Below, in pieces: positions 708 through 17,608 of a stretch of DNA of 64,000 bases (the stretch's first letter is position 1; each line of letters opens with the position of its first letter). Under the pieces are notes generated by a model. The model saw nothing but the letters and a program-made list of their open reading frames with translations. It was not told the origin of the DNA and ran no database searches. The translations under genes were made by a program, and so were the position numbers. Source of the DNA: SAR324 cluster bacterium (GTDB lineage: Bacteria > SAR324 > XYD2-FULL-50-16); assembly GCA_028282885.1 (NCBI GenBank), contig JANQGX010000038.1, forward strand, positions 124,001 through 188,000, read 5' to 3'.

Positions 708-3266
708 TTGATCAGATTCAGCCTCAACGGAAGGGAAAAAGAGTACGCGGGAGATCCTGAAACGACCCTGCTTTCTTATTTAAGGGAGTCGGAAGGTATT
801 ACCTCGGTCAAAGACGGATGTTCGGGACAGGGAGCCTGTGGAACCTGCCTGTTGGAAGTGAATGGCAAACCGACCCTCTCCTGTCGTACAGCCATGCGGA
901 AGCTGGAGAATGGCACAGTCGTCACCATTGAAGGATTCGATCCGCAGTTGAGAGACCTGCTGGCAAAAGCTTTTGTGGAAGAGGGAGCCGTTCAGTGCGG
1001 ATTTTGCACACCGGGATTTCTATCCCGCACAAGACTGCTGCTGCAAAACAACGAATCACCCACCAGGGAAGAGATCATTAAATCCCTGGGATTAAACCTT
1101 TGCCGTTGCACCGGATACGTTAAAATTGTAAATGCCATTTTTTCCGCCTCTCAAAGGCTCCAACAAAATGAAACTGTTGGTTTAACCAATGACGGTCGCA
1201 TCGGTGTCAGCTATCCCAAACTGGATGCTTACCGGAAAGCCATCGGCACTTCCGATTTTGTCTCCGATATGAAAATTGAGGGGATGCTTTTCGGCGCCCT
1301 CAAGTTCAGCGATCATCCCAGGGCCAGGTTCCTGGGAATGGATACGACAGAAGCGGAAAATCTTCCGGGAGTCGTTCGGGTATTCACCGCAAAAGACATA
1401 CCGGGCGATCGCGTAACAGGACATCTGGTCGATGACTGGCCCCTGATGATCGAAAAAGGTGAAACAACCCGCTATATCGGGGATGTATTGGCCGGGGTTG
1501 TGGCCGAATCAGAGGAAACTGCCCGACAAGCCTGTGAAATGATCCGGGTTGATTATGAAGTACTGGAACCCCTGACCGACATGCTACAGGCTGAAAACAG
1601 CAATATCAGGGTTCACGAACCTGGAAATCTGCTCTGCCGGACCGATTTCAGCAGGGGACTTGACATTGAATCCGTGTTATCCGGATCAGCTTATACCGTA
1701 GCGGGAACCTACAAGACCCAGTTTGTGGAACACGCCTTCCTGGAGACCGAAGCTGCCATCGCCACACCGGGACAGGATAAGACCATACGTTTCTATGTTC
1801 AATCCCAGGGGATCTATGATGACAGAAAACTGATCTCGCGAATCCTGGCGCTTCCGGAATCCAAGGTCGATGTCACCCTCGTCCCCTCCGGCGGAGCCTT
1901 TGGTGGCAAGGAAGATCTCACGGTACAGGGTCATGCAGGTTTATTTGCCCATCTGTTATGCAAACCCGTCCGTGTGCGCCTGGACCGGAATGAATCGCTA
2001 CGCATGCACCCCAAGCGTCATCCCCTGATTATGAAGTATCAGTTGGGCTGTACCAAAGACGGTAAACTGACAGGCCTCAAAGCCGATATCATCGGCGATA
2101 CAGGAGCTTATGCTTCATTGGGACCGGCAGTTCTGAACAGGGCTGCGGGACACGCGGCCGGCGGATACTACCTGCCCAACATTGATGTCTCCTCTAAAGG
2201 TTATTACACCAATAACATTCCGGCAGGTGCTATGCGGGGCTTCGGGGTCAACCAGGTGACCTTTGCCATGGAATCCTCCATAGACGAGTTATGTGAAAAA
2301 GGAGGATTCGATCGCTGGCAGTTTCGTTATGACAATGCGCTGGAGAACGGTCTTCAGACCACTACGGGCCAGATACTGAAAGGTGGCGTCGGTCTTAAAA
2401 AAACGTTGGAAGCCGTAAAAGAGGATTTTCAAAAAGCCGAATTTGCAGGCATCGCCATTGGCATCAAGAATGTCGGGTTCGGAAACGGTTTGGTTGATGA
2501 AAGCGAGGTTGAGATTATCATCCGCTCGGAATCGAAAATAGAACTGCATCACGGTTGGACAGAGATGGGACAGGGTATTGATACTGTTGCCATCCAGGTG
2601 TTCTGCGAGACCAGCGGTCTCAATTGTCCCGGGAACATTGAAATTATCCGCAGCACCTCATCCGGGGTGATTGGAGGAACAACCACCGCCAGTCGCGGCA
2701 CCTTCCTGCTGGGGAATTCGGTGATCGAAGCTGCCCTGAAAGTGAAAGAGGATCTGGAAAAACACCCGCTTTCCGAACTCGTTGGTAGAAAATACCGCGG
2801 CAGATGGTCCTGTGACTGGACCCAGGATGTCAGCAGATCTGAAAACCCTGTGACTCACGTTGCATATAGTTATGCAACCCAGGTGGTGGTGATTGATGAA
2901 ACAGGCAGGGTGAAAAAGGTGATTGCCGCTCATGATATCGGCAAAGCGATTAACCCCAAACTCCTGGAAGGCCAGATAGAAGGAGCCGTGGTCATGGGTA
3001 TCGGTTATGCCTTTACCGAAAACCTTCCCCTGGAAAATGGCTACCTGAAACACACACGTTTTGGTAAAATTGGATTGCCAAGAGCCCGAAATATGCCGGA
3101 AATTGATGTACGGATTGTTGAGGCTAAAGATCCCCATGGGCCATACGGAGCCAAAGGGATCGGTGAAATCGGATTGGTCCCGACCGCCGGGGCGGCTGCA
3201 AATGCCCTCTATCAACTTGACGGACGACGATGTTATCAACTTCCTTTTAAAGAGGTGAAAAAATGA
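708..3266 (+). CDS. selenium-dependent xanthine dehydrogenase, fused [2Fe-2S] and molybdenum subunit
   Basis: An 852-residue single-chain molybdenum hydroxylase. Residues 1-150 form two [2Fe-2S] domains with all eight cysteines: C38, C44, C47, C59 in the plant-ferredoxin fold and C97, C100, C132, C134 in the helical domain (QCGFCTPG, LCRCTGY). From about residue 160 comes the Mo-pterin part with GGAFGGKE, GAMRGFG, TEMGQGID and the GIGEIG segment that should carry the catalytic glutamate. Length and fusion order fit the family annotated as Se-dependent xanthine dehydrogenase in clusters with YqeB/YqeC. There is no FAD domain, so electrons must leave through a separate flavoprotein. The start codon is TTG, preceded by CGGAGA; its stop overlaps the ATG of ssnA by four bases, indicating translational coupling. 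Xanthine/purine as substrate comes from family and neighbours. Confidence 0.88.
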   Translation: MIRFSLNGREKEYAGDPETTLLSYLRESEGITSVKDGCSGQGACGTCLLEVNGKPTLSCRTAMRKLENGTVVTIEGFDPQLRDLLAKAFVEEGAVQCGFCTPGFLSRTRLLLQNNESPTREEIIKSLGLNLCRCTGYVKIVNAIFSASQRLQQNETVGLTNDGRIGVSYPKLDAYRKAIGTSDFVSDMKIEGMLFGALKFSDHPRARFLGMDTTEAENLPGVVRVFTAKDIPGDRVTGHLVDDWPLMIEKGETTRYIGDVLAGVVAESEETARQACEMIRVDYEVLEPLTDMLQAENSNIRVHEPGNLLCRTDFSRGLDIESVLSGSAYTVAGTYKTQFVEHAFLETEAAIATPGQDKTIRFYVQSQGIYDDRKLISRILALPESKVDVTLVPSGGAFGGKEDLTVQGHAGLFAHLLCKPVRVRLDRNESLRMHPKRHPLIMKYQLGCTKDGKLTGLKADIIGDTGAYASLGPAVLNRAAGHAAGGYYLPNIDVSSKGYYTNNIPAGAMRGFGVNQVTFAMESSIDELCEKGGFDRWQFRYDNALENGLQTTTGQILKGGVGLKKTLEAVKEDFQKAEFAGIAIGIKNVGFGNGLVDESEVEIIIRSESKIELHHGWTEMGQGIDTVAIQVFCETSGLNCPGNIEIIRSTSSGVIGGTTTASRGTFLLGNSVIEAALKVKEDLEKHPLSELVGRKYRGRWSCDWTQDVSRSENPVTHVAYSYATQVVVIDETGRVKKVIAAHDIGKAINPKLLEGQIEGAVVMGIGYAFTENLPLENGYLKHTRFGKIGLPRARNMPEIDVRIVEAKDPHGPYGAKGIGEIGLVPTAGAAANALYQLDGRRCYQLPFKEVKK

Positions 3267-4540
3267 CAATTTACCTGAAAGAGGCCACATATATCGATTG
3301 GGAAACCCTGAAGTTCAAACACGGCAACCTGGCCATCTCCACCCGACTGGAAAAACCGCTTGAATTCATCGACCAGATCCCGGATGACAACCGACTGAAT
3401 GTGCAGGATCGAGTGGTCGATTGCGAGGGCAAACTGGTGACAAAATCGTTTGCCTGTGGTCACCATCATATCTATTCCACCCTTTCAAGGGGAATGCCGG
3501 CTCCTGCCAAGGATCCTGAGAACTTCGTGGAGAAGTTGAAATATGTCTGGTGGAACCTGGATAAAAACCTGACCCTTGACATGATCCGGGCCAGCGCCCT
3601 GGCATCGGCTCTCTATTGTGCCAAGAATGGCGTTACCTTTGTCATCGACCACCATGCCTCCCCCTTCGCCATAGAAGGCTCTCTGAATGCCATCCGCGAG
3701 GCATTTGAAGCGGTGGGGATCTCGCATCTGCTCTGCTATGAGATCTCGGAACGGGACGGTTTGGAGGTAAGGGATCAGGGACTGGCTGAAACCAGGCAAT
3801 ATCTTTCGGAGAATAATCCCGGGCTGGTAGGGCTTCATGCTTCCTTCACGATCGGCAATGACACCTTACAAAAGGCGATTGCACTGGCAGAAGAGTTCAG
3901 TTCGGGAGTTCATATTCATGTGGCAGAAGACCGGGCCGATCAGGATGATTGTCTGGAAAAATATGGAACCAGGGTTGTGGAACGACTTCATCAATTCGGC
4001 GCTCTGGCGCTTCCCAAAACGATTCTGGCACATTGCATTCATCTTGAAGAAAAAGAAGTGGACCTTCTTAAAAACTCCCCAGCCTGGGTTGTAGAGAATA
4101 TCGAAAGTAATGCCAACAACAATGTCGGATTTGCCAATCATCAGCAATACAGTAACAGGGTTATGCTCGGCACCGACGGAATGCACTCCGACATGTTAAG
4201 AAGCGCCAAAGCTGCATTTCTGTACGGACAGGCAACCGAAAAAATCAGTTTTCCGGGAATCTACGATCGATTCAGAAATGTTCATCTCTATCTTTCTGAA
4301 AACAGTTTCCGGGGAGACGGTAACAACAACCTGGTCATCCTCGACTACGATTCTCCTACGGAGATCAACGCGGATAATTTCCTGGGTCATTTTGTATTCG
4401 GAATTGACTCCAAACATGTGGAGAGTGTGATCTCCAACGGCAAATTGATTGTGGAGAAGAGAAAGCTGATGACGGTGGATGAATCCAGAATACTCTCCTT
4501 CGCCCGTGAAATGGGAAAACAGCTCTGGAAGAAGCTTTAA
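3263..4540 (+). CDS. ssnA: SsnA, putative aminohydrolase of the selenium metabolism cluster
   Basis: A 425-residue amidohydrolase-superfamily protein of the ATZ/TRZ type. The N-terminal metal-binding segment appears as FACGHHHIYSTL. Further metal and catalytic segments are DHHAS, HIHVAED, LAHCIHL and GTDGMHSDM, in the usual order around a TIM barrel. Composite beta-sandwich ends surround it. E. coli ssnA sits in the same ygfK-ygfM-xdhD neighbourhood, and the family is known from SDMH and uric acid degradation clusters; the exact reaction is not settled, hydrolytic ring opening or deamination of a purine-derived intermediate being the natural expectation. ATGA overlap with the preceding dehydrogenase and a GAGGTG ribosome site fix the start. 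Confidence 0.88.
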   Translation: MTIYLKEATYIDWETLKFKHGNLAISTRLEKPLEFIDQIPDDNRLNVQDRVVDCEGKLVTKSFACGHHHIYSTLSRGMPAPAKDPENFVEKLKYVWWNLDKNLTLDMIRASALASALYCAKNGVTFVIDHHASPFAIEGSLNAIREAFEAVGISHLLCYEISERDGLEVRDQGLAETRQYLSENNPGLVGLHASFTIGNDTLQKAIALAEEFSSGVHIHVAEDRADQDDCLEKYGTRVVERLHQFGALALPKTILAHCIHLEEKEVDLLKNSPAWVVENIESNANNNVGFANHQQYSNRVMLGTDGMHSDMLRSAKAAFLYGQATEKISFPGIYDRFRNVHLYLSENSFRGDGNNNLVILDYDSPTEINADNFLGHFVFGIDSKHVESVISNGKLIVEKRKLMTVDESRILSFAREMGKQLWKKL

Positions 4541-4603: not shown

Positions 4604-5803
4604 ATGGAAAAAGCAGAAATCGCTAATAGAATAGAAAGCCTGGCGTCAAAATCTATTGAGAAGATGTATCTCAATGATTTTCTTCTGACATGGGATAAAT
4701 CCATGGATGAATTGGAGTCTGTCTTTGCCGTTGCGGAGATACTCAGAGGGCTTAGAGGTCAAAACATCTCTCCCCGTATCTTTGACTCCGGATTGGCTGT
4801 CTCCATTTTCCGGGACAATTCCACCAGAACCCGTTTCAGTTTTGCCTCCGCCTGCAACCTGCTGGGTCTGACCATCCAGGATCTGGATGAAGAAAAATCC
4901 CAGATCGCCCACGGCGAAACCGTTCGGGAAACAGCCAATATGATCTCTTTTCTGGCCGATGTTATTGGTATTCGGGACGACATGTACCTGGGTGCCGGAC
5001 ATACCTACATGAAAGAAGTTGCAGAATCGGTCGAACAAGGACACCAAGAGGGAGTATTGCCGCAACGTCCGACCCTGGTAAACCTGCAATGCGACATCGA
5101 CCATCCTACACAGACCATGAGCGACGCTCTGCACCTTATCAACCATTTCGGCGGAATTGAGCAGTTAAAGGGCAGGAAAATAGCGATGACCTGGGCCTAC
5201 TCTCCCTCATACGGTAAGCCACTGTCGGTACCCCAGGGAGTGATCGGTTTGATGACCCGCCTGGGCATGGAAGTTCGCTTCGCGCACCCGGAAGGATATA
5301 ACGTTATGCCGGAAGTGGTGGATATTGCCAAAAACAACTGTGATGAAGGTTCAGGTTCTTTCATTCAAACCGACTCCATGGCCGAAGCCTTCGAAGGTGC
5401 GGATATTGTTTATCCGAAAAGCTGGGCCCCCTTCAGTGTGATGGAAAAACGAACCGAGTTACTGAGAGCACAGGATCATGGCGGGCTTAAAGATTTGGAG
5501 AAGCAGTGTCTAGAAAATAACAGGAAGTTTATCGACTGGGAATGCACCGAAGAGCTGATGAGGAAGACCAACGACGGCAAGGCGCTCTACATGCACTGCC
5601 TTCCTGCGGATATCACAGGTGTTAGTTGTCAAAGGGGTGAAGTCGAAGCCTCGGTTTTTGATCGTTACCGGGTCCCCCAGTATATCCAGGCCGGTTACAA
5701 ACCCTATATAATTGCAGCCATGATTTTCCTGGCCAAAACAAAGCAACCGGTTGAGGCCTTAAAAAAGATAACGGATGGAGCCAATCCCAGGTTTACTGGG
5801 TAG
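4604..5803 (+). CDS. ygeW: YgeW, knotted carbamoyltransferase
   Basis: A 399-residue aspartate/ornithine-carbamoyltransferase family protein. The carbamoyl-phosphate site DNSTRTRFSF is at about residue 72 and the second-domain HCLPAD motif at about residue 330, typical of the YgeW branch; length matches E. coli YgeW (about 396). The reaction in vivo is thought to run toward carbamoyl phosphate from a ureido compound such as N-carbamoyl-2,3-diaminopropionate or a related purine breakdown product, feeding the carbamate kinase upstream. AAGGA precedes the ATG. It is separated by 63 nt from ssnA and 151 nt from ygfK on the same strand. Family assignment is strong; the physiological substrate is taken from literature on the E. 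coli and gut-bacterial clusters rather than visible here. Confidence 0.9.
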   Translation: MEKAEIANRIESLASKSIEKMYLNDFLLTWDKSMDELESVFAVAEILRGLRGQNISPRIFDSGLAVSIFRDNSTRTRFSFASACNLLGLTIQDLDEEKSQIAHGETVRETANMISFLADVIGIRDDMYLGAGHTYMKEVAESVEQGHQEGVLPQRPTLVNLQCDIDHPTQTMSDALHLINHFGGIEQLKGRKIAMTWAYSPSYGKPLSVPQGVIGLMTRLGMEVRFAHPEGYNVMPEVVDIAKNNCDEGSGSFIQTDSMAEAFEGADIVYPKSWAPFSVMEKRTELLRAQDHGGLKDLEKQCLENNRKFIDWECTEELMRKTNDGKALYMHCLPADITGVSCQRGEVEASVFDRYRVPQYIQAGYKPYIIAAMIFLAKTKQPVEALKKITDGANPRFTG

Positions 5804-5954: not shown

Positions 5955-8900
5955 ATGAGTGATGCATTTACCTGCTATCCGATTGATAAGCTGTTTCGGT
6001 GGATTCTGGCCGAGGAGCAAACCGGATCCATTTTCGGAATTCATAAGGAGTTGTTTTTTACTCCTCGTAAATCAGATCCTTTCCGGATGGAGCGTTATGG
6101 TGTTCCCCTTGAAACCCCAATAGGGGTAGCCGCGGGACCCCATACCCAGATGTCCCAGAATATTGTCGCAGCCTGGCTCACCGGCGCCCGCTATATTGAG
6201 CTAAAAACGGTTCAGGTTCTTGATGAACTGGAAATCACCAAACCGTGCATCAAAATGGAGGACGAAGGCTATAACTGCGAATGGTCGCAAGAGCTTAAGC
6301 TCGATCAATCCTATCGTGAATACCTGAATGCCTGGATCCTTATTCATCTCCTTAAGGATAAATTCGGTTGGGGAGATCCGAATGAGCGTGGATTTATTTT
6401 TAACATGAGTGTGGGATACAACCTGGAAGGTATTCAAAGCGAATCGGTACAACGTTTTCTGAATAATCTTGCGGATTGCAGTCGGGAAAAAGTTGAGGCT
6501 GTAGAGCAATTGGCAGAAATCTATCCCGGAATCCGGGAGATAGAGATACCTGACTGCATTGCGGATAATATAACCATCTCCACCATGCATGGCTGTCCCT
6601 CCGATGAAATTGAAAAAATCGGCCGTTATTTTATTGAGGAACGCAAACTCAATACCACCATCAAGCTAAATCCCACCCTGCTGGGCAGTGAGCAGCTTCG
6701 GGACATCCTTAATCACCGCCTCGGGTATGATATCACCGTTCCCGATCTGGCTTTCGAACATGATCTGAAGTTCGACGCAGGCGTAAATTTAATCGGAAAT
6801 TTACAGAAAGCAGCCGACAAAGCCGGGGTGCATTTCGGACTGAAACTGACCAACACCCTGGAGACAGAGAACAGACCGGGTAATTTGCCGGCTAATGAGG
6901 AAATGGTCTACATGAGCGGAAGACCCTTGCATGTTATCAGTATCAATGTGGCAGCCAAACTGCAGGAAGTCTTTTCCGGATCGCTGGATCTCTCCTTTTC
7001 TGCGGGCGTTGACTGTTTTAACGTTGCCAAGGTTTTATCCTGCAATATGAAACCTGTTACGGTATGTTCCGATATCCTGAAACCGGGCGGGTATACCAGA
7101 ATGGGCCAATATCTTGAAGAGCTGGAAAAGGAAATCAGACTCCACCGGGCCGATTCTCTTGATGAGTTCGTGATGAAATCCGCTGGTAGACCGAACAGTC
7201 TCACCGGGGCTGCAATGGAGAATTTGAAAAGATACGCCAAAGAAGTTGTTGATAATCGGAGGTATCACAAATCCGATTTCCCTTTTGAAAACATCAAAAC
7301 GGATCGGGAACTGCCGATATTTGACTGCACCCGTGCCCCCTGCCTGACAGAATGCCCGACCGAGCAGGATGTTCCGGCATACATGGCATATACTGCGGCG
7401 GGGAAATACCAGGATGCACACCAGGTCATCCTGCAAACCAATCCTTTCCCCAATGTCCAGGGGAAGGTCTGTAATCACCCCTGTCAAAGCAAATGCACAC
7501 GAATCAATCTTGACGGCCCATTAAAGATCAGGGAGATCAAACGATTCATCGCTGAGCAGTACAATGACATTTCCGGACTGGACCAAAAACCGATCCGCGA
7601 ACATCGTGTAGCAATTATCGGAGCGGGGCCTTCCGGGCTTTCCTGTGCCTATTTTCTGGCCCTGGAAGGTTTCCGGGTGGATGTGTTTGAAGCAAAATCC
7701 GCACCCGGTGGAATGGCTTTCGATGCTATTCCCCAATTCAGACTTGATAATCAAAGCCTGGAATCGGACATCAAACGAATCGAAAAACTGGGCGTCACCC
7801 TTCATCTGGACACGACTGTCACCCGACAAAAATTTGATGAATTGCGTGAGGATTATGACTATGTTTATGTAGCCGTAGGAGCCCAGCAGTCTCTGAAACT
7901 GGAAATTCCGGGTGAAAGCGGCCAGGGCGTTTGGGATCAATTGGAATTTCTCAGCCGTGTCAAAAATGGAACTTCACCGGAACCGGGCAAACAGGTGATT
8001 GTTTTTGGTGCCGGTAACTCGGCAATGGATGCTGCCCGAACCGCTAAAAGGCTTGTGGGAAGGGATGGTGAAGTCAGCATTCTCTACAGAAGAACCCGCA
8101 AGGAGATGCCAGCCGACAGGGAAGAGATTGAAGAGGCCATCCATGAAGGAATCAAAATCGTGGAGCTGATTGCTCCGGAGAGGATCATCCTCGAAGATGG
8201 AAAGGTAAAAGGTGTGGAGTGTGCCCGTATGAGACTCGGAGAACCGGATGCGAGTGGAAGAGCGCGGCCGGAGAAAACCGACAAACCAAATATGGTGTTT
8301 AAGGCAGATACCATTATTCCGGCCATCGGACAGCAAATCGATCTCTCCTTTTATCCCGAAGCGTCTCTGACAATCAATCCCGAAACCTGTGAAACCAGCC
8401 TAAAAAACGTCTTTTCCGGAGGAGATGCCATCAGGGGTGCCGCCACCCTGATTGAAGCCATTGCCGATGGTAGACGGACAGCCGGAAACATAATAAAATA
8501 TGCTATGGGACAATCAGTCGGTTCCTCGGGAAAAATAGAACCTGAAATCAGTTTTGTGGAATATTCCCGAAAACTGGCAAAACGCCAGTTAGGTCTCTTT
8601 CGGGAAAGTAAACCCCATGAAGGGCATTTGGATTTCAACCTGGTTTCCAAGGGTCTTGACGAAGCGTCCGCCATTTCGGAAGCACAGAGGTGTCTTGCAT
8701 GTGATACTTACTGCGCCATCTGTACCACAGTCTGCCCAAATCGGGCGAACCTGGTGTTTGAAATGGAAAGAACATCTGCTCCATTGCAGATCGCGATGGT
8801 GAAGAACGGTGGAACGGAGATACAGACAGAAGGCAGACTGGTTATAGAAGACTCTCTTCAGATTCTGAATGTGGGCGATTTCTGCAATGAATGCGGCAAT

Positions 8901-9236
8901 TGTACCTCTTTCTGTCCGACCAACGGGGCGCCCTACAGGGTTAAACCTCGGTTTTGCCTGTCGGAAGAATCGTTTGAAAAAGAAGAGAATGCTTACTATC
9001 TGGAGAACAACCGACTATTGGCCAAAGCAGATGGCCTGGAATCACAACTACAGGAGGTTGATGGCGGTTTGCTTTATGAAAACAATGAGATCAGGGCGGT
9101 ACTTGACAAACTAAGCCTGACGGCCTCACAGGTCGAGTTCAAAAAAGAAGGCGTCACCGAACACAGGCTGGAAAGCGCTGTGACCATGGCTCTGCTTTGG
9201 GGAGCTCTGCAGGACTTCCACCTGTTTCAGCATTAA
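5955..9236 (+). CDS. ygfK: YgfK, multidomain Fe-S flavoprotein oxidoreductase of the SDMH/purine cluster
   Basis: A 1093-residue cytoplasmic protein with three parts. Residues about 40-440 are a dihydroorotate-dehydrogenase-like barrel. Residues about 455-530 are a cysteine-rich GltD-type Fe-S domain (CTRAPCLTECP, CNHPCQSKC). Residues about 550-860 are a two-dinucleotide-binding flavoprotein (VAIIGAGPSG for FAD; VFGAGNSAMD for NAD(P)H). The C-terminus adds ferredoxin-like clusters CLACDTYCAICTTVCP near 914 and CNECGNCTSFCP near 977. E. coli YgfK (once called putative selenate reductase) has the same plan, resembling dihydropyrimidine dehydrogenase and glutamate synthase small subunit. It is required in the anaerobic uric acid/purine pathways of gut bacteria. 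I infer that it is the hydride/electron hub linking NAD(P)H to purine-ring reduction or to the Mo hydroxylases. Confidence 0.9.
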   Translation: MSDAFTCYPIDKLFRWILAEEQTGSIFGIHKELFFTPRKSDPFRMERYGVPLETPIGVAAGPHTQMSQNIVAAWLTGARYIELKTVQVLDELEITKPCIKMEDEGYNCEWSQELKLDQSYREYLNAWILIHLLKDKFGWGDPNERGFIFNMSVGYNLEGIQSESVQRFLNNLADCSREKVEAVEQLAEIYPGIREIEIPDCIADNITISTMHGCPSDEIEKIGRYFIEERKLNTTIKLNPTLLGSEQLRDILNHRLGYDITVPDLAFEHDLKFDAGVNLIGNLQKAADKAGVHFGLKLTNTLETENRPGNLPANEEMVYMSGRPLHVISINVAAKLQEVFSGSLDLSFSAGVDCFNVAKVLSCNMKPVTVCSDILKPGGYTRMGQYLEELEKEIRLHRADSLDEFVMKSAGRPNSLTGAAMENLKRYAKEVVDNRRYHKSDFPFENIKTDRELPIFDCTRAPCLTECPTEQDVPAYMAYTAAGKYQDAHQVILQTNPFPNVQGKVCNHPCQSKCTRINLDGPLKIREIKRFIAEQYNDISGLDQKPIREHRVAIIGAGPSGLSCAYFLALEGFRVDVFEAKSAPGGMAFDAIPQFRLDNQSLESDIKRIEKLGVTLHLDTTVTRQKFDELREDYDYVYVAVGAQQSLKLEIPGESGQGVWDQLEFLSRVKNGTSPEPGKQVIVFGAGNSAMDAARTAKRLVGRDGEVSILYRRTRKEMPADREEIEEAIHEGIKIVELIAPERIILEDGKVKGVECARMRLGEPDASGRARPEKTDKPNMVFKADTIIPAIGQQIDLSFYPEASLTINPETCETSLKNVFSGGDAIRGAATLIEAIADGRRTAGNIIKYAMGQSVGSSGKIEPEISFVEYSRKLAKRQLGLFRESKPHEGHLDFNLVSKGLDEASAISEAQRCLACDTYCAICTTVCPNRANLVFEMERTSAPLQIAMVKNGGTEIQTEGRLVIEDSLQILNVGDFCNECGNCTSFCPTNGAPYRVKPRFCLSEESFEKEENAYYLENNRLLAKADGLESQLQEVDGGLLYENNEIRAVLDKLSLTASQVEFKKEGVTEHRLESAVTMALLWGALQDFHLFQH

Positions 9237-9287: not shown

Positions 9288-10085
9288 ATGATCAAACAGT
9301 TTTACAAACCGACTTCACTTGAAGAAGCCCTGTTGCTTAAAGAGAAGTACGAAAATGCAGCCACGTGGTTTGCGGGAGGAACCCACCTCAACCACGCCGA
9401 TTATAAAGCCAGCTACGACAAAGTCATCAGTCTTGAAGGGCTTGGTCTCCACTATATCAAAACCAGGGATAACACCACAACAGTGGGAGCTTCAGTTACC
9501 CTGCAAAAGCTGGCCGGTAATGGCCTGATCCCGGATGCCCTTAGAAAAGCCGCCTTTGTCGGAGCACCCCGCAGTGTCCGCAATATGGCAACTATCGGCG
9601 GCGACATCGCATCAAGAGGGAGAGCGACCCGCCTGCTTCCCTGCCTGATAGCCCTTAATGCCAGAATAGAAACCGCACAGAAAAAGAGCCTGACCCTGGA
9701 AGAGTACCTGCAGACCGACCGAAGCGAGTTGATTTTGAAGGTGATAATTCCGTTGGTAAAATCCTGCTGTTGCGTCAACAGTTATTCCCTTCAGTCCGGT
9801 GGACCCATTCTGGTTAATGCGGCTGTCAATATTCCGGGGCCGGAAAGTGAGGATGAGACACCTATCATTGCTATCGGTAATATGGAGGAGTCAGTCCGCA
9901 GGTTAACCGATATTGAGAAGATGGTTCAGGATAATCCGACACTTGACCGGGATGCCCTTGAATCAGCAATAGTTGAAACGATTAATCCTGTGGAAGACTA
10001 TTTGGGATCGGTCAAATTCAAAAAGTATATCACAGCAATCACCGTCTCGGAATGCATTCTGAGCTGCTGTTTGGAAAGGGGGTAA
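9288..10085 (+). CDS. ygfM: YgfM, FAD-binding subunit of the XdhD-type Mo hydroxylase
   Basis: A 265-residue protein of the CO dehydrogenase/xanthine dehydrogenase FAD-subunit family. The flavin-binding segments are WFAGGTHLN near residue 28 and GAPRSVRNMATIGGDIAS near residue 90, followed by a C-terminal CODH-type fold. It is shorter than XdhB (292), as in the YgfM branch. Its stop lies 2 nt before the xdhD ATG, so the two are almost certainly co-translated partners. It follows ygfK by 51 nt. The E. coli gene is likewise directly upstream of xdhD. Function is transfer of electrons between the XdhD molybdenum centre and NAD or YgfK, inferred from the family. Confidence 0.88.
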   Translation: MIKQFYKPTSLEEALLLKEKYENAATWFAGGTHLNHADYKASYDKVISLEGLGLHYIKTRDNTTTVGASVTLQKLAGNGLIPDALRKAAFVGAPRSVRNMATIGGDIASRGRATRLLPCLIALNARIETAQKKSLTLEEYLQTDRSELILKVIIPLVKSCCCVNSYSLQSGGPILVNAAVNIPGPESEDETPIIAIGNMEESVRRLTDIEKMVQDNPTLDRDALESAIVETINPVEDYLGSVKFKKYITAITVSECILSCCLERG

Positions 10086-10087
10086 AA

Positions 10088-12958
10088 ATGGAAATCAGAT
10101 TCAAGCTGAACGACAGGCAATACACCATTGAAACAGCCCCCGGGGAAAACGCCCAGCAGCTCCTGCAAAGGCTGGGTATCTGTTCGGTTCGAAAATCTGA
10201 GGAACCCAGCGGATTCACCGGGAGCAGTATCATTCTCCTGAACAACAAAATTGTAAATGCTGAGCTACTGATTGCCGCACAGCTCGATGGTCACAATATC
10301 AAAACCGTTGAATCCCTTTCCAAAAAAGGGGGTCTCTCACCCGTTCAAAAAGCCCTGGTAGAGGTTGGGGTCGTACAATCCGCTTACAACTCACCGGCTG
10401 CGGCCCTGGTAATCACCAATCTTCTGAAGCGAAAACCCGATCCTTCGCGCAAAGAGATCATGGATGCCCTGTCCTGTCTTTTCATCAGGGATACCGGTTA
10501 TGAACCGTATTTTAAGGCTGTGGAAATTGCAAAAGAACGATTCAAGGATCCTGAATACCAGGGATTTATTGCGGAAGAGTTTAGAAGCGATCTGAGGATA
10601 GTGGGGAAAAACTACCCCAAGGTGGATGGTCCGCAACTGGTTGCCGGAAAAAGGGCTTATGTGGAAGACAGGATACAGCCTGGCAGCCTGGTCTTGAAGA
10701 TGATGCGCAGTCCCTATGCCCACGCCTATATCAGCTCCATTGACACCTCGGTGGCTGAAAAAACACCCGGGGTGGCTATGATCATAACTTACAAAAACTG
10801 TCCGGATCATTATTTTACCACTGCGGGCCAGGGTTATCCGGAACCATCTCCTCATGACAGGAAGATGTTTGGACAGAAGCTCCGCCATGTCGGCGACAGG
10901 GTCGCTGCGGTTGTGGCGGAAAGTGAGAAAATCGCTTATAAGGCCATGCGGAGAATCAAGGTTGAGTATGAGCTGCTGCCAACCGTGCTTTCCATTGAAG
11001 AGGCGGAAGCGGAGGATGCTCCCGTTGTTCATAATGGAGATATCGATTTTTTGAGCGGAGCCCCGGACAATCTGGAACAGATGAAACAAGGCTTTGATTC
11101 CAGAGATGGCCGAATCATCTATCCTTTCCCCATTGGCGCTGATCCGCATAAGAACCTGGCCTCCAGCGTTTCTAACGGCATCGGTGATACCGAGAAAGGG
11201 TTTGCCGAGGCTGATCATATTATCGAAAGGGAGTATCAAACCTCCCAGGTACATTGCACACCGCTTGAACCCCATTCGGTGTATACGCTGATAGACGGGG
11301 ATCGTCTTGTAATACACGCTTCAACCCAGGTTCCCTGGCACGTTCGGAGAAACATCGCCCGGATACTCGGTATCAGTGAAAACAGGGTCAGGGTGATTAA
11401 AGAGAGAGTGGGTGGCGGTTACGGCTCAAAACAGGATATCCTGCTTGAAGACGTTGCAGCCTTTGCGACCTGGAAAACCGGACTACCCGTTTTCTACCAG
11501 TTTAGCAGGGAAGAAGAGTTCATCGCCTGTAGCTCACGGCACCCCATGAATATCAGGGTCAAACTGGGAGCCAAAAAGGACGGGCGGCTGACAGCCATTG
11601 ATATGAAGGTTAAAGCCAACACAGGACCATACGGAAATCACTGCCTGACGGTTCCCATGAATGCCTGTTCCAAAACCCTTCCCTTGTTAAATTGTGAGAA
11701 TATGTCTTTTGATGTTCGGGTTTTTTATTCCAATATCTACCCCACCGGCGCTTACCAGGGATATGGCGCTCCCCAGGGTTCCTTTGCCCTGCAGACAGCC
11801 CTGGCAGAGCTTGCTGTTGAACTGGGAATTGATCATCTGGAGTTAATAGAGAAGAACCGGGTGGGAGAAGGATCGGTTCTGGAAATACTGAGATGCCTGG
11901 GAGAGGGACAGGAAGGCGCCGTGGTCAAGCTGGCGAGTTGCGGACTTGAGAAAGCGCTTGATCTTGGAAGTAAGGCATTTGCATACGGGAAGAAAGAGGA
12001 AAGCTCCGATCCCGATATTAAGATTGGCAAGGGCATGGCTATTGTTCAACAAGGCTCGGGCCTGCCCGGATTGGACCAGTCCAATGCAAGAATAACCCTG
12101 GTTTCCGACGGTTCTTTGTTGGTCCACACCGGCGGAGCTGATATCGGAACCGGACTGGATACCGTCTGCGCCAAAATTGCCGCTGAGATACTCTGCCTGG
12201 AATTGGAAAAAACCTCCGTTGTATCCGGTGATACGGACAACACTCCCTTTGACACCGGAGCCTACGCTTCAAGCGGGACCTATTTCTCCGGGAATGCGGT
12301 AAAGAGGGCCGCTGAAGATTTAAAGAAAAAGATGTTGAACTATGCTGCGGAACTTCTGGCAGAACCCGAATCGGGATTAACCCTGGAGTACCCCGGTATG
12401 GTAAAAGGATCAAAAGGCGGCCTGAGCTTCCATGAGATCGCCCACAAAGCCGAGAGCGGGACTGGAAGGGGGCATCTGGTCGGCCATGATTCCTACACAA
12501 CAGAAGATACGGCAATTCCCTATGGAGCACACTTTTGCCAGGTTGCTGTGAACACCCGAACCGGCATTGTGAAAGTCCAGAAATACCATGCTTACATGGA
12601 TTGCGGCACCCCGATAAACCCTGAACTGGCAGAAGCACAAGTCTACGGCGGGGTTTTGAAGTCTATCGGACACACCCTCTGGGAAGAGATGAAGATGGAC
12701 GGTAAAGGAGTCTGTCTCAATCCTGATTTGAAGAGCTATGGAGTTCCCATGGTGGGTGACATCCCGGATGATTTCAAAGTCAAGTTTGTGCAAACGGATG
12801 ATCCCTTTGGTCCTTTTGGTGGTAAATCCATTTCCGAGGTCAGCACCAATGGTGCATCCTGTGCTATTGCCACGGCTATTCATGACGCAGTCGGAATCTG
12901 GCTGCGAGATTGGCCCTTCACTCCGGAAAAGATTCTGACCGGCCTTGGCAAACTATAA
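10088..12958 (+). CDS. xdhD: XdhD, molybdenum-binding hydroxylase subunit with degenerate ferredoxin domain
   Basis: I start this at the ATG at 10088, not at the ORF-track start 10052, because AAGGGGG stands just upstream and the upstream gene ends at 10085; the product is then 956 residues, the length I recall for E. coli XdhD. Residues 1-150 have the ferredoxin-like layout of a fused [2Fe-2S] subunit, but the cysteine motifs are gone: the first reads KSEEPSGFTGSS, the second QSAYNSPA, the third LFIRDTGY; only C32 and C130 remain. The Mo-pterin part follows with VGGGYGSKQ, GAYQGYGAPQ, GGADIGTGLD and the FGGKSISEVS segment for the catalytic glutamate. E. coli XdhD has the same degeneration. 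Annotated elsewhere as probable selenate reductase Mo subunit; a purine substrate is more plausible from context. Confidence 0.9.
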   Translation: MEIRFKLNDRQYTIETAPGENAQQLLQRLGICSVRKSEEPSGFTGSSIILLNNKIVNAELLIAAQLDGHNIKTVESLSKKGGLSPVQKALVEVGVVQSAYNSPAAALVITNLLKRKPDPSRKEIMDALSCLFIRDTGYEPYFKAVEIAKERFKDPEYQGFIAEEFRSDLRIVGKNYPKVDGPQLVAGKRAYVEDRIQPGSLVLKMMRSPYAHAYISSIDTSVAEKTPGVAMIITYKNCPDHYFTTAGQGYPEPSPHDRKMFGQKLRHVGDRVAAVVAESEKIAYKAMRRIKVEYELLPTVLSIEEAEAEDAPVVHNGDIDFLSGAPDNLEQMKQGFDSRDGRIIYPFPIGADPHKNLASSVSNGIGDTEKGFAEADHIIEREYQTSQVHCTPLEPHSVYTLIDGDRLVIHASTQVPWHVRRNIARILGISENRVRVIKERVGGGYGSKQDILLEDVAAFATWKTGLPVFYQFSREEEFIACSSRHPMNIRVKLGAKKDGRLTAIDMKVKANTGPYGNHCLTVPMNACSKTLPLLNCENMSFDVRVFYSNIYPTGAYQGYGAPQGSFALQTALAELAVELGIDHLELIEKNRVGEGSVLEILRCLGEGQEGAVVKLASCGLEKALDLGSKAFAYGKKEESSDPDIKIGKGMAIVQQGSGLPGLDQSNARITLVSDGSLLVHTGGADIGTGLDTVCAKIAAEILCLELEKTSVVSGDTDNTPFDTGAYASSGTYFSGNAVKRAAEDLKKKMLNYAAELLAEPESGLTLEYPGMVKGSKGGLSFHEIAHKAESGTGRGHLVGHDSYTTEDTAIPYGAHFCQVAVNTRTGIVKVQKYHAYMDCGTPINPELAEAQVYGGVLKSIGHTLWEEMKMDGKGVCLNPDLKSYGVPMVGDIPDDFKVKFVQTDDPFGPFGGKSISEVSTNGASCAIATAIHDAVGIWLRDWPFTPEKILTGLGKL

Positions 12959-13030: not shown

Positions 13031-13849
13031 ATGGCATTGAATAACAAACCTCTGTCCCAACTGACGCTCTGTATCAAAGGAGCCGGTGAAATGGCAAGCG
13101 GTGTGGCCTGTCGGCTTCATGCCGCAAATCTTTCCAGAATACTGATGCTGGAAACACAGAATCCCCTGGCTGTCCGCAGGAAGGTCTCTTTTTGCGAAGC
13201 TGTCCACGACAGCAGGCAGAGTGTAGAAGGTATTGTTGCATGCAAGATCACCAGCCCCGAACAGATGCAATCCGTCTGGCTTAAGAATGAAATTCCCATT
13301 CTCGTCGATCCGGAAGGAGACATTCTTGAAACCTATCCCTTCGATGTCTTGATCGATGCGATCCTGGCCAAACAGAACCTGGGAACCCGAATTGATGCGG
13401 CACCCCTGGTTATTGGTCTTGGCCCCGGTTTTGAAGCCGGATCGGATGTTCATAAGGTCATTGAAACCCAGCGGGGACATAATCTGGGAAGAATCATCGA
13501 CAAAGGTGAAGCAGAGAAAAACACCGGGATTCCGGGAAATATTGGAGGATTTACCAGTCAGAGGGTTTTAAGAGCTCCTGTAGCAGGAAGATTCAAGTCT
13601 TTCAAGTCCATAGGAGACTTGGTAATAAAGGGCGATTGTCTGGCAACGGTGAACGGTCAACCAGTGGTTGCAGAAATTAGTGGCATGCTGAGAGGGCTGA
13701 TCCGCGGGAACTTGGAAGTTCCTGAAGGATTGAAATTAGGGGATATCGACCCCCGGGGGAAGATTGATTATTGCTCAACCATATCTGAGAAGGCCAGGGC
13801 TATCGGTGGAGCAGTACTGGAAGCCGTTCTGGCTCATTACAACGTATAG
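13031..13849 (+). CDS. yqeB: YqeB-family (EF2563-type) selenium-dependent hydroxylase maturation protein, single-module form
   Basis: A 272-residue protein with an N-terminal Rossmann-like start (IKGAGEMASG), a conserved central LVIGLGPGFEAG stretch, IPGNIGGFTSQRVLRAPVAG, and a C-terminal GxxxP-rich region. This is the family found only with SDMH enzymes and thought to help make or insert the selenium-containing Mo cofactor. E. coli YqeB is about twice this length because it carries an extra XdhC-like half; here only the EF2563-like module is present. It lies 72 nt after xdhD and 106 nt before xdhA on the same strand. No strong ribosome site is visible before the chosen ATG, so the start is slightly uncertain. 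Confidence 0.85.
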   Translation: MALNNKPLSQLTLCIKGAGEMASGVACRLHAANLSRILMLETQNPLAVRRKVSFCEAVHDSRQSVEGIVACKITSPEQMQSVWLKNEIPILVDPEGDILETYPFDVLIDAILAKQNLGTRIDAAPLVIGLGPGFEAGSDVHKVIETQRGHNLGRIIDKGEAEKNTGIPGNIGGFTSQRVLRAPVAGRFKSFKSIGDLVIKGDCLATVNGQPVVAEISGMLRGLIRGNLEVPEGLKLGDIDPRGKIDYCSTISEKARAIGGAVLEAVLAHYNV

Positions 13850-13955: not shown

Positions 13956-16250
13956 ATGGCAGTAGGAGACAGAGTTGACCGGGTGGATGCTATAGCCAAG
14001 GTAACCGGCAAGGCCAGGTACACCGATGATTTTTTCAGACCCGGAACCCTGGTTGCCAAGTATTTGAGGAGTTCAATTGCCCATGGCAGGGTAACCGGAC
14101 TCTCGGTTGAAAAGGCCCGAGAGCTTGAAGGGGTAGAGGCGGTTTTTACCTACGAGGATGTTCCTCCTATCAAAGTCGCAACAGCAGGACATCCCTATTC
14201 CCTGGATCCTGCTCATGCCGATGTGGCCGACAAGCTGCTGTTGACCGACAGAATAAAGCACCTGGGTGATGAGATAGCCATTGTGGTGGCTGAGAACGAA
14301 CTGATCGCCGACGAAGCGCTTGCCCTGGTTGAAGTGGAATATGAGGAATACCCGGCTCTGACCACTCCGGAAAAGATATTGGCACCAGACGCCAGAAAGA
14401 TTCATGAAGACAGCAGTAACGTTGTTGGAGAACACCAATACGAATGCGGGGGGAAGCTCGATGAGGCTTTTGAACTTGCCGACCTGATCCATGAAGAACA
14501 ATACTATACTGCAATGGTTCAACACGTTCATCTGGAAAACCACACCGCTTTGGCTTATATGGACGACCTGGATCACATCGTTGTGATTTCGTCCACGCAG
14601 ATCCCCCATATTGCCCGGCGGGTGGTCGGACAGGCCTTGGGAATTCCCTGGGGACGTGTCAGGGTCATCAAACCCTACATCGGGGGTGGTTTCGGCAACA
14701 AGCAGGATGTCATCCTGGAGCCGATGGTCGCCTTTCTGACGTCGAAATTGGATGGTCAACCGGTCAGGCTTACCCTGTCACGTGAAGAATGTATGCTCTG
14801 TACCCGCAACAGGCATCCCATGGATTTCGAAGTAAAACTGGGAATGAAAGAGGACGGAACCGCGGTGGCAAGAATGGTTGATGTTATTTCCATGACAGGA
14901 GGATACGCCTCCCACGGTCACTCTATTGTCGCGGCTGGCGGCAGCAAAAGCTGTCTGCTTTATCCCAGGATGACCATTGGCTATCATGCGCGCACACTCT
15001 ACGCCAATATACCGGTTGGTGGAGCCATGAGAGCCTACGGATCTCCCCAGATCACCTTTGCCATCGAGTCCGCCATGGATGACGCAGCCAGGAAATTGGG
15101 GGTCGATCCGGTTGAGATGAGGATCAAAAATGCCGCCAGACAAGGTGATATCAATCCTTTTTCCAAGTTACCCATCTCCAGTTGCGGTCTCGTTGAATGT
15201 CTGGAAAAGGGTCGGTCGCTGATCCGTTGGGATGAGAAGAGAGAGGATTACAGGAACCATAAATCCGGGAAAATCCGTTATGGGTTGGGTGTTGCTTGTT
15301 TCAGTTATGGAACCGGGACTTACCCGGTATGTGTTGAAATAGCAGGAGCCAGAATCATTCTTAACCAGGATGGATCCATTCATGTTCAAACCGGCGCAAC
15401 AGAAATCGGACAGGGTTCGGATACCGCTGTCGCACAGATGGCGGCCAAGACCCTGGGCATTCCGGTGGAAAACGTTCATATCGTATCCACCCAGGATACC
15501 GATGTCACACCTTTTGACACCGGGGCGTATGCATCCAGGCAGGCTTATGTGGTGGGAAATGCCGTGTACAAAGCCGCTACTGAACTAAAACAGAAGATTC
15601 TGGATTATGCTGCCCTGCTCACCGGATTCCCGGCTGCGAGTTTGGATCTCAAGGGAGAATCCATTGTTAATATCACTGACAATAACACATCGGTGATCTC
15701 GTTAAACGATCTGGCGCTAAGCTCTTATTACGACAAAGAGAAAGGCGGTCAACTCACCGCTGACGTGTCCCATAAAACAACCACCAATGCTCCATCGTTC
15801 GGGTGCACCTTTGTGGACGTTGCTGTTGATATCCCTCTCTGCAAGGTCACCATCAACGAGATCTATAATATTCATGATTCGGGGGTGATTATTAACCCGG
15901 TTATGGCAAAAGGTCAGGTCGAGGGGGGAATGGCCATGGGCATCGGGGCGGCGCTATCCGAACAGGTGCTGATTGATCAGGAAACCGGAAGGGTGCATAA
16001 CAACAATATGTTGGATTACAAGGTCCCGACCTTTACGGACGTTCCGGATATCCATCACGATTTTGTAGAGACCGTGGAACCAACAGCCAGCTACGGTAAC
16101 AAGTCCCTGGGCGAACCACCCATCATATCACCGCCACCGGCAATTCGGAATGCCATTCTGGATGCCACGGGTGTCGCGGTAAATGAGCTGCCTATGTCTC
16201 CCCAGGTTCTGTTCAAAGCCTTCAAAAGCCACGGATTGCTCAAACCCTGA
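13956..16250 (+). CDS. xdhA: xanthine dehydrogenase molybdenum-binding subunit XdhA
   Basis: A 764-residue molybdopterin subunit without N-terminal Fe-S domain. Diagnostic segments are GGGFGNKQD (Mo-pterin binding), GGAMRAYGSPQ (substrate-side arginine loop), ATEIGQGSDT, and KSLGEPPI, where the glutamate of GEPP is the general base in this enzyme family. Length is close to E. coli XdhA (752). It is the first gene of a compact xdhABC set: xdhB begins 12 nt later and xdhC overlaps xdhB. The complete three-subunit enzyme would oxidise hypoxanthine or xanthine, or run in reverse on urate under anaerobic conditions, with electrons moving Mo to Fe-S to FAD. Substrate assignment is by homology. Confidence 0.92.
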   Translation: MAVGDRVDRVDAIAKVTGKARYTDDFFRPGTLVAKYLRSSIAHGRVTGLSVEKARELEGVEAVFTYEDVPPIKVATAGHPYSLDPAHADVADKLLLTDRIKHLGDEIAIVVAENELIADEALALVEVEYEEYPALTTPEKILAPDARKIHEDSSNVVGEHQYECGGKLDEAFELADLIHEEQYYTAMVQHVHLENHTALAYMDDLDHIVVISSTQIPHIARRVVGQALGIPWGRVRVIKPYIGGGFGNKQDVILEPMVAFLTSKLDGQPVRLTLSREECMLCTRNRHPMDFEVKLGMKEDGTAVARMVDVISMTGGYASHGHSIVAAGGSKSCLLYPRMTIGYHARTLYANIPVGGAMRAYGSPQITFAIESAMDDAARKLGVDPVEMRIKNAARQGDINPFSKLPISSCGLVECLEKGRSLIRWDEKREDYRNHKSGKIRYGLGVACFSYGTGTYPVCVEIAGARIILNQDGSIHVQTGATEIGQGSDTAVAQMAAKTLGIPVENVHIVSTQDTDVTPFDTGAYASRQAYVVGNAVYKAATELKQKILDYAALLTGFPAASLDLKGESIVNITDNNTSVISLNDLALSSYYDKEKGGQLTADVSHKTTTNAPSFGCTFVDVAVDIPLCKVTINEIYNIHDSGVIINPVMAKGQVEGGMAMGIGAALSEQVLIDQETGRVHNNNMLDYKVPTFTDVPDIHHDFVETVEPTASYGNKSLGEPPIISPPPAIRNAILDATGVAVNELPMSPQVLFKAFKSHGLLKP

Positions 16251-16262
16251 GAAAGGAAGGAT

Positions 16263-17141
16263 ATGTTTCCATTAAAAAGTTACGAAAAAGCCGAATCGGT
16301 CGACCATGCGATACAACTCCTGCAGGATAATCCTGAAGCACGACCTATCGCCGGTGGAACCGATGTATTGATCCGGCTCAGGGATGGCAAGACCGGGTAC
16401 GATCATCTGGTCGATATTCACCAATTGGAAGCCCTGCGCCAGATCAAAACGGACGAAGACGGAACCCTGGTCATCGGGTCCGGGGTGACCTTCAGCATGG
16501 CCATGGAATCGGAACTGATCAGGGAGATAATTCCTATCCTGTCAACTGCATCTGAGACTGTAGGCGGTCCCCAGGTAAGAAATGTGGCTACCATCGGAGG
16601 CAACATCTGCAACGGCGTTACGAGTGCAGACAGTGCCTCACCGTTAATGGCTCTGAATACTGTCCTTCAGTTGGAAGGTCCCCGGGGAACGCGATTGGTG
16701 CCCATCGCCGAGTTTTACCTGGGTCCCGGCAAGGTCGATATCGGGCAACAGGAGATTCTCGTTTCCTTTAGAATCGGGGAAAAGGATTATAAGGGCTATT
16801 ACGGTCACTATCATAAATACGCCATGCGCAATGCCATGGATATCGCCACCATTGGTTGTGCCGCCCTGTGTAAAATTGAGGCGAACCAACTGACAGACCT
16901 GAGACTGGCTTACGGTGTTGCTGCGCCGGTTCCCATTCGTTGCACCAACACGGAACAGGCTGTTATTGGCAAGCCCGTTAACAGGGATCTGATCCGCGAA
17001 ATCGAGTCTCTTGTGGAAAAGGACGTAAATCCTCGGACATCCTGGCGAGCTTCCAAAGAATTTCGTCTGCAGATCATCAGCGAGCTTTCCAATCGGGTCG
17101 TCACCCAGGTCATCGAAAAAGCAGGAGGGAGGATAGAGTGA
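16263..17141 (+). CDS. xdhB: xanthine dehydrogenase FAD-binding subunit XdhB
   Basis: A 292-residue CODH/XDH-type flavin subunit, the length I recall for E. coli XdhB. FAD contacts are seen in PIAGGTDVLIRLRDG near residue 30 and GGPQVRNVATIGGNICNG near residue 104. A GAAGAAAGGAAG-like purine-rich stretch precedes the ATG (GAGAAAGGAAGG). Its TGA is embedded in the GTGA that starts xdhC, a four-base overlap implying coupled translation. It would accept electrons from XdhC and pass them to NAD or another acceptor. Confidence 0.93.
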   Translation: MFPLKSYEKAESVDHAIQLLQDNPEARPIAGGTDVLIRLRDGKTGYDHLVDIHQLEALRQIKTDEDGTLVIGSGVTFSMAMESELIREIIPILSTASETVGGPQVRNVATIGGNICNGVTSADSASPLMALNTVLQLEGPRGTRLVPIAEFYLGPGKVDIGQQEILVSFRIGEKDYKGYYGHYHKYAMRNAMDIATIGCAALCKIEANQLTDLRLAYGVAAPVPIRCTNTEQAVIGKPVNRDLIREIESLVEKDVNPRTSWRASKEFRLQIISELSNRVVTQVIEKAGGRIE

Positions 17142-17608
17142 ACAAAATCATCACATTTACGGTAAACGGCAAAAAACGAGAACTGAATGTAGACGTTCGC
17201 AGTTCACTTCTGGATGTTTTGAGAGAAATAGTCGGCATGACCGGCGCCAAAGAAGGTTGTGGCGTCGGTGAATGCGGAGCCTGTTCGGTTCTGGTGGACG
17301 ATTTGCTGGTGGATTCCTGTATTTATATGGCTGTTTGGGCGGACGGAAAATCAATCAGAACCGTTGAGGGCGAATGCAGGGATGGAAAACTGAGTTCCGT
17401 GCAAAAGTCCTATGTTGAAAAGGGGGCTGTTCAGTGCGGTTTCTGTACTCCCGGTTTTGTCATGGCTTCCACAGCTTTTAAAGAGCGATTTAAGGATAAA
17501 ACTTTTACCAGGGACGACATCCGCCGGGAACATGCGGGTAATATCTGTCGCTGCACAGGGTACGAAAGCATCATCGAAGCGGTGGAACAAAGCATGGAAG
17601 AGGATTGA
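17138..17608 (+). CDS. xdhC: xanthine dehydrogenase [2Fe-2S] subunit XdhC
   Basis: A 156-residue two-cluster ferredoxin subunit. C41, C46, C49 and C61 (GCGVGECGAC...SC) bind the first cluster; C100, C103, C137 and C139 (QCGFCTPGF, NICRCTGY) bind the second. All ligands are present, in contrast to the XdhD N-terminus. GTG start overlaps the xdhB stop, with AGGAGGGAGG just upstream as ribosome site. It completes the xdhABC enzyme and lies immediately before the YheO-type regulator gene. Name follows E. coli usage; it is not the XdhC/CoxI-type chaperone. Confidence 0.93.
   Translation: MNKIITFTVNGKKRELNVDVRSSLLDVLREIVGMTGAKEGCGVGECGACSVLVDDLLVDSCIYMAVWADGKSIRTVEGECRDGKLSSVQKSYVEKGAVQCGFCTPGFVMASTAFKERFKDKTFTRDDIRREHAGNICRCTGYESIIEAVEQSMEED

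Follow-up and report, generated by a model that had tools for sequence, protein, structure and literature searches.

XdhD of a SAR324 bacterium lacks all iron-sulfur ligand cysteines and is probably a molybdenum reductase without the usual electron relay

We analysed a stretch of 64,000 nucleotides (the window) from a SAR324 cluster bacterium (assembly GCA_028282885.1, contig JANQGX010000038.1, positions 124,001 to 188,000 of the forward strand) and found that the molybdenum-binding subunit XdhD encoded there has 0/8 of the ligand cysteines of the two [2Fe-2S] clusters. All eight positions are occupied by cysteine in the three proteins with which it was aligned, namely the XdhC and the fused selenium-dependent dehydrogenase of the same window and the XdhC of E. 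coli. We consider it probable that XdhD is a molybdenum reductase whose electron wire has been dismantled: the former Fe-S domains would be structural, the partner subunit YgfM would be remodelled, the canonical path would be gone and the molybdenum would be reduced in another way. XdhD would thus be a genuine reductase of the xanthine oxidase family, which makes yanthine from uric acid in E. coli and, by extension, in the SAR324 organism. In E. coli it starts the anaerobic breakdown of uric acid, and homology suggests the same for other bacteria; this step is of medical interest for gout. The positions of the genes and of the relevant parts of XdhD are given in Table 1.

Table 1. Genes and gene parts of the window (position 1 is the first letter of the window)
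Feature	Position	Strand	Evidence or remark
Fused selenium-dependent XDH, XdhAC type	708..3266	+	TIGR03311, 916 bits; eight cysteines all present
SsnA-type aminohydrolase, uricolytic operon	3263..4540	+	Best matches PRK07203 SsnA (387 bits) and TIGR03314 (346 bits), both below cut-off
YgeW carbamoyltransferase, uricolytic operon	4604..5803	+	TIGR03316, 706 bits (cut-off 500)
YgfK, Fe-S flavoprotein, yanthine reductase	5955..9236	+	TIGR03315, 922 bits; function from PMC12507026
YgfM, FAD-subunit homologue, XdhD partner	9288..10085	+	TIGR03312, 184 bits (below cut-off of 241.5); Pfam FAD_binding_5, 93.5 bits
XdhD, molybdenum-binding subunit, 956 aa, Cys-less	10088..12958	+	TIGR03313, NCBIfam
Former plant-ferredoxin-like domain of XdhD, residues 1-72, FeS II site lost	10088..10303	+	Alignment with XdhC; Pfam Fer2 unmatched
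Former FeS II ligand positions Glu38, Thr44, Ser47, Glu59	10199..10264	+	Cys in XdhC and in intact XdhD
Former helix-bundle [2Fe-2S] domain of XdhD, residues 73-146, FeS I site lost	10304..10525	+	Pfam Fer2_2
Former FeS I ligand positions Ser98, Asn101, Ile133, Asp135	10379..10492	+	All Cys in 23 intact XdhD
Glu606 of XdhD, proposed determinant of uric acid 6-dehydroxylation (PMC12507026)	11903..11905	+	104/104
Gly885 of XdhD, class marker	12740..12742	+	Lys/Arg in every intact XdhD
Glu917 of XdhD, expected catalytic Glu of the xanthine oxidase family	12836..12838	+	104/104
YqeB, selenium-dependent maturation gene	13031-13849		TIGR03309
XdhA, XdhB, XdhC, ordinary xanthine dehydrogenase, full relay	13956..17608	+	NF043082, NF043083, NF043084, over cut-off
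XdhC, eight cysteines kept	17138-17608		Alignment
Guanine deaminase	26224-27543
YqeC, selenium cofactor protein	30335-31090		TIGR03172

The XdhD reading frame translates as stated from the ATG at 10088 (another in-frame ATG lies at 10052), and the YgfM gene, directly upstream, ends two bases before this ATG. The protein scores 1337.4 bits with the TIGR03313 profile (XdhD / Se_sel_red_Mo), the cut-off of which is 1101.9, and covers the profile entirely (1-951/951); its Pfam domains are MoCoBD_1, MoCoBD_2 and hammerhead (PF02738, PF20256, PF01315). Residues 73-146 are still matched by Fer2_2 (E 1.7e-14, 54 bits), and the Fer2 half of the N-terminus has no Pfam match. A preliminary description of the window had quoted the motifs KSEEPSGFTG, QSAYNSPA and LFIRDTGY in XdhD, which are exactly as quoted, and had stated that XdhC and the fused dehydrogenase keep all eight cysteines in a similarly spaced arrangement; the alignment bears this out, the spacing of the first motif agreeing within one residue. 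The same loss had been stated for E. coli XdhD, and indeed the K-12 sequence has 0/8 ligand cysteines, with the motifs RNSDDGFGFAG, QSGYNDPA and LFSRDAGW. At the FeS II site the Cys-less relatives, E. coli XdhD included, usually have Asp38 and Asp47, whereas the protein of the window has Glu38 and Ser47. Judging by the sequence, the XdhD protein would carry no [2Fe-2S] clusters. The database label of an Fe-S-binding subunit (the family description of TIGR03313 still reads Mo/Fe-S-binding) conflicts with the sequence, as clusters cannot bind there in the usual way.

A profile-based scan of species genomes yielded 80 loci with XdhD, to which whole-genome searches added further ones, mainly from Spirochaetota. 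The aligned set holds 104 XdhD sequences from several phyla (101 of them distinct): 23 have all eight ligand cysteines, and the other 81 have at most one. When all the domains of ferredoxin/helix-bundle type in the fetched loci are taken together (177 domains, some loci repeating a genome), each has either 8/8 or 0-1/8 of the ligand cysteines, and intermediates are absent. This means that the absence of the ligands is not a matter of chance. The intact XdhD proteins form a single clade, with an SH-aLRT support of 96 (90 in another tree). Identity to the XdhD of the window is 56-60% for the non-spirochaete intact orthologues and 56% for E. coli XdhD; since the intact clade is no further from our protein than E. 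coli XdhD is, the cysteine loss is, on this comparison, derived within the XdhD family. The loss had been called ancestral rather than decay. It is not recent decay, and it is ancestral to the Cys-less clade, but intact orthologues, which the preliminary description itself had named as grounds for refutation, stand nearby in the tree and overturn the reading that it belongs to the family as a whole: it is a derived event.

The Cys-less proteins have replaced the cysteines in a common way: the ferredoxin site reads Asp-x-Asp-x and the helix-bundle site reads Ser-Asn-x-Asp (Ser98 in 78/81, Asn101 in 79/81, Asp135 in 71/81). This shared code argues that the cysteines were probably lost once, which is the simplest reading. 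It is not strictly proven, because the Cys-less proteins lie on one side of a branch in one tree (support 84.5) but two changes are needed in two other trees. The electron wire would then have been lost most likely once, before Cys-less XdhD spread to Gammaproteobacteria, Spirochaetota, SAR324-type bacteria and others. In one Spirochaetia genome (loci L096 and L125) XdhD is present as two distinct Cys-less paralogues, both of which have a YgfM of their own.

The gene of the partner YgfM immediately precedes that of XdhD in almost all loci, whether XdhD is intact or Cys-less. We examined its flavin site with XdhB and solved flavin subunits as the reference, and four positions (106, 113, 115 and 172) are changed in the Cys-less lineage. 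Position 172, the Asp of the R-x-x-(x)-D motif, is Asp in 20/22 partners of intact XdhD and in 0/80 partners of Cys-less XdhD, of which 62 have Gly and 12 have Ser. At position 115, where XdhB has Asp, the partners of intact XdhD have Asp, Asn, Ser or Ala and those of Cys-less XdhD mostly Val, Tyr or Leu, while position 113 passes from Cys to Glu or Asp. According to this alignment, the flavin site of YgfM is remodelled in the Cys-less lineage. As this remodelling goes in step with the cysteine loss, the path from NADH to FAD, FeS II, FeS I and finally Mo would be gone. YgfM may still bind FAD, since the pyrophosphate loops AGG[ST] and TIGG[NED] and the fold are kept (the AlphaFold2 model of YgfM has a pLDDT of 90.3 and a normal flavin-subunit fold, the best Foldseek match being 1t3q_C with a TM of 0.87). 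A new pair of YgfM cysteines, 161 and 260, is complete in 54/80 partners of Cys-less XdhD; the 22 partners of intact XdhD have neither of the two.

Li et al. (2025) reported that purified E. coli XdhD, together with a protein of about 30 kDa which is putatively YgfM, makes yanthine from uric acid with NADH, and that deltaxdhD E. coli makes no yanthine (PMC12507026). They modelled the pair on the xanthine dehydrogenase of R. capsulatus, with YgfM as the electron input. All eight Fe-S cysteines being lost, this published route, in which electrons go from NADH through YgfM to the molybdenum of XdhD, cannot be right as drawn if the sequence is any guide. The main text of that paper is silent on 2Fe-2S and names Fe-S for YgfK only. 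The commentary of Percudani (PMC12990295) treats YgfM as an electron-transfer module, lists the donor of XdhAC as open and leaves the missing XdhD clusters unmentioned, and Haft and Self (2008, PMC2276186) listed the genes and did not discuss the Fe-S ligands. Our literature search, with supplements and many subscription papers outside its coverage, found no report of the ligand loss in XdhD.

The results of Li et al. nevertheless suggest that electrons of NADH reach XdhD by way of the XdhD-YgfM pair (PMC12507026), and YgfM could still be the donor if NADH reduced its FAD and the electrons crossed to the Mo-pterin unaided, either slowly at the canonical distance or via a rearranged and shorter interface. 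Besides the NADH-dependent reaction itself, the position of YgfM immediately before XdhD in both classes, its retained FAD loops and the AlphaFold3 ipTM of 0.94 cited for the pair in the commentary (PMC12990295) speak for such a transfer. The fact that canonical residues of the flavin site change together with the Fe-S loss speaks against it. In the geometry of xanthine dehydrogenase the gap between flavin and molybdenum, once the clusters are taken away, exceeds 20 A, which is too far for fast transfer. For the published reaction, the text describes neither a rate nor a control without NADH (PMC12507026). We regard YgfM as an unlikely donor on balance, although one to be taken seriously. If XdhD is a reductase without a relay, as we prefer to think, the published NADH activity would come either from YgfM, by a transfer that is slow or takes a short cut, or from some other reductant present in the assay.

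Another donor had been proposed in the preliminary description, in which the dead domain served as a docking platform for YgfK, whose own Fe-S clusters could replace the relay. In YgfK these would be [4Fe-4S] clusters. YgfK does have a GltD-like NAD(P)H/FAD module and Fe-S motifs, and it shares the operon in many Cys-less loci. But whole-genome searches detected it in 20/20 Spirochaetota genomes tested, XdhD being intact or Cys-less, usually in the same operon (the usual spirochaetal order is YgfK-SsnA-SsnA2-YgfM-XdhD in both classes), and in 3/12 intact non-spirochaete genomes versus 8/11 Cys-less genomes. The three Cys-less genomes in which these searches did not find it are alphaproteobacterial MAGs. 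Moreover, the published assay of XdhD ran without added YgfK, and the enzyme was active (PMC12507026). YgfK thus accompanies both classes of XdhD, and hence the cysteine loss does not track YgfK. The docking proposal is not supported by these observations, and a relay through YgfK appears improbable. A coupling between cysteine loss and YgfK looked strong by neighbourhood in our first 83 loci and dissolved with the whole-genome searches and the Spirochaetota; the apparent link came from the limited neighbourhoods of the early loci.

We also considered AegA and UacF, the formate-linked Fe-S flavoproteins of uric acid degradation in E. coli (PMC8097209), and rejected them as a general donor, the search threshold being reached in gammaproteobacterial genomes only. 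We found no donor candidate that is confined to Cys-less genomes. In the relay-less reductase which we favour, the molybdenum centre would be reduced directly by a donor outside the wire, which might be a redox protein that docks there or a molecule donating hydride at the Mo pocket; granted the rest of the explanation, this last step has in our opinion about an even chance of being right. Most spirochaetal operons (loci L126-L145) have a second SsnA-like aminohydrolase, of 23-26% identity, between SsnA and YgfM, and this holds for both classes.

The Mo pocket of XdhD is unchanged: Glu606, Gln449, Gln557 and Glu917, the last of which should be the catalytic residue as elsewhere in the family, are invariant in 104/104 XdhD of both classes. 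As the active-site residues that we checked are the same in both classes, the alignment indicates that the chemistry was probably kept while the relay was removed. A pocket left intact while the whole wire is altered would also suit a redox-neutral XdhD, a transhydroxylase or isomerase which shuttles a hydroxyl between purines and needs no external electrons. However, deltaxdhA cells of E. coli, which keep xdhD, accumulate yanthine from uric acid and do not consume xanthine (PMC12507026). This means that neither isomerisation of xanthine nor xanthine made by XdhA accounts for yanthine; these data contradict an isomerase acting between xanthine and yanthine, and make a redox-neutral XdhD of any kind quite improbable. 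The idea of a reductive enzyme, already present in the preliminary description, holds for E. coli XdhD on the strength of the literature.

Ten positions of XdhD separate the two classes: five ligand sites, the neighbouring position 37, and positions 233, 452, 664 and 885, so that six of the ten are at or beside ligand sites. Position 885 is Lys or Arg in 23/23 intact proteins and Gly in 75/81 Cys-less ones, and position 664 passes from Ser or Ala in intact XdhD to Gln or His in Cys-less XdhD. The changes at 885 and 664 follow the cysteine loss in a nearly one-to-one way. We looked for a structural reason for these two changes and found none; the use of Lys/Arg885 as a marker of flavin contact was rejected, as that position is Glu in PaoC, Leu in CODH and quinoline oxidoreductase, and Arg in HCR.

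The N-terminal domains do not look abandoned. The AlphaFold2 model of XdhD (built with 37 orthologues) has a pLDDT of 86.5 and a pTM of 0.88, with the former ligand loop 40-42 below pLDDT 50, and its best Foldseek match is the whole aldehyde oxidoreductase of D. gigas (TM 0.83/0.87). The ratio of N-domain to Mo-domain divergence is 1.37 for the Cys-less class and 1.49 for the intact class; the two values being similar, constraint on the N-domain is not relaxed in Cys-less XdhD. A folded domain without its ligands, as had been supposed, is therefore a fair description, the fold being still predicted and the constraint equal to that of the intact domain. Former ligand positions 38, 47, 98 and 101 rank with the better conserved positions of the domain, 135 is moderately so, and 44, 59 and 133 drift; five replacements (Asp38, Asp47, Ser98, Asn101 and Asp135) are kept across phyla. 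We infer that the former ferredoxin and helix-bundle domains, deprived of their [2Fe-2S] clusters, were kept as a folded and selected structural module, which would pack on the Mo domain and on YgfM, conserved Asp, Ser and Asn taking the place of the ligand cysteines.

The same five kept residues could instead bind a non-canonical metal centre in the old sites. This seems very doubtful to us: hard O and N ligands fit Mg or Ca and not an electron-carrying cluster, loop 40-42 is poorly predicted, and Asp, Ser and Asn are ordinary helix caps and loop locks. Finally, every ligand being gone, one could think of a decaying, non-functional XdhD in which the cysteine loss was neutral, which is hardly credible in view of the equal domain constraint, of the invariant Mo pocket, of the activity and phenotype in E. 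coli (PMC12507026) and of the XdhD match in 5149/5426 E. coli genomes.

Among known systems, the XdhD-YgfM pair of E. coli (TIGR03313/TIGR03312), published as NADH-driven (PMC12507026), is one of the closest to ours: its XdhD is orthologous, with a Cys-less N-terminus and Glu606, and its neighbours YgfM, YgfK and SsnA are also those of the window. It differs at the FeS II site, as described above, and in that the pair of the window adjoins an XdhAC-type enzyme. The intact sister clade (for example loci L016, L020, L034, L134 and L145) shares with the window the YgfM partner and the Mo pocket; SsnA is present in almost every genome of this clade that was tested, and the Spirochaetota members have the YgfK operon too. 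Unlike our protein, the XdhD of this clade has the eight Fe-S cysteines, Lys/Arg885 and Ser/Ala664, and its YgfM has more canonical flavin residues. With the same Mo pocket and, in Spirochaetota, the same operon, it provides a natural control for the cysteine loss. 4-Hydroxybenzoyl-CoA reductase retains its [2Fe-2S] clusters and carries one more cluster in its flavin subunit. This enzyme (1rm6), which provides the nearest Mo subunit to XdhD by profile search, belongs likewise to the xanthine oxidase family and works in the reductive, dehydroxylating direction. The D. gigas aldehyde oxidoreductase MOP (1sij) is, like XdhD, a single chain with Fe-S domains fused to Mo domains, but in MOP both [2Fe-2S] clusters are retained and a flavin subunit is lacking (PMC12316806). 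XdhD could be the first recognised enzyme of the xanthine oxidase family without any iron-sulfur relay, its molybdenum receiving electrons straight from an outside donor and its fossil ferredoxin domain remaining only as scaffold; we put this forward tentatively, believing the chances to be slightly less than even. If it is true, the cysteine loss turns XdhD into a reductase that works in one direction and is disconnected from the usual flavin wire.

Three enzymes of the xanthine oxidase family adjoin in the window: the fused selenium-dependent dehydrogenase, which has no FAD subunit, the Cys-less XdhD with YgfM, and the full XdhABC. The fused enzyme (TIGR03311) resembles XdhD in that its Fe-S and Mo domains are fused, and differs from it in its eight cysteines, in the lack of YgfM and in its low identity to XdhD. 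It is of the type of the XdhAC of Clostridium sporogenes, for which yanthine formation from uric acid has been reported (PMC12990295), and the organism may thus carry out the uric acid step twice. This has to be set against our reading, as the XdhAC-type enzyme might perform in the SAR324 organism the very step which we attribute to XdhD. YqeB and YqeC, maturation genes of selenium-dependent molybdenum hydroxylases, are both linked to the XdhD of the window. With the guanine deaminase and YqeC further downstream, the set of purine and selenium-molybdenum genes reaches about 31 kb.
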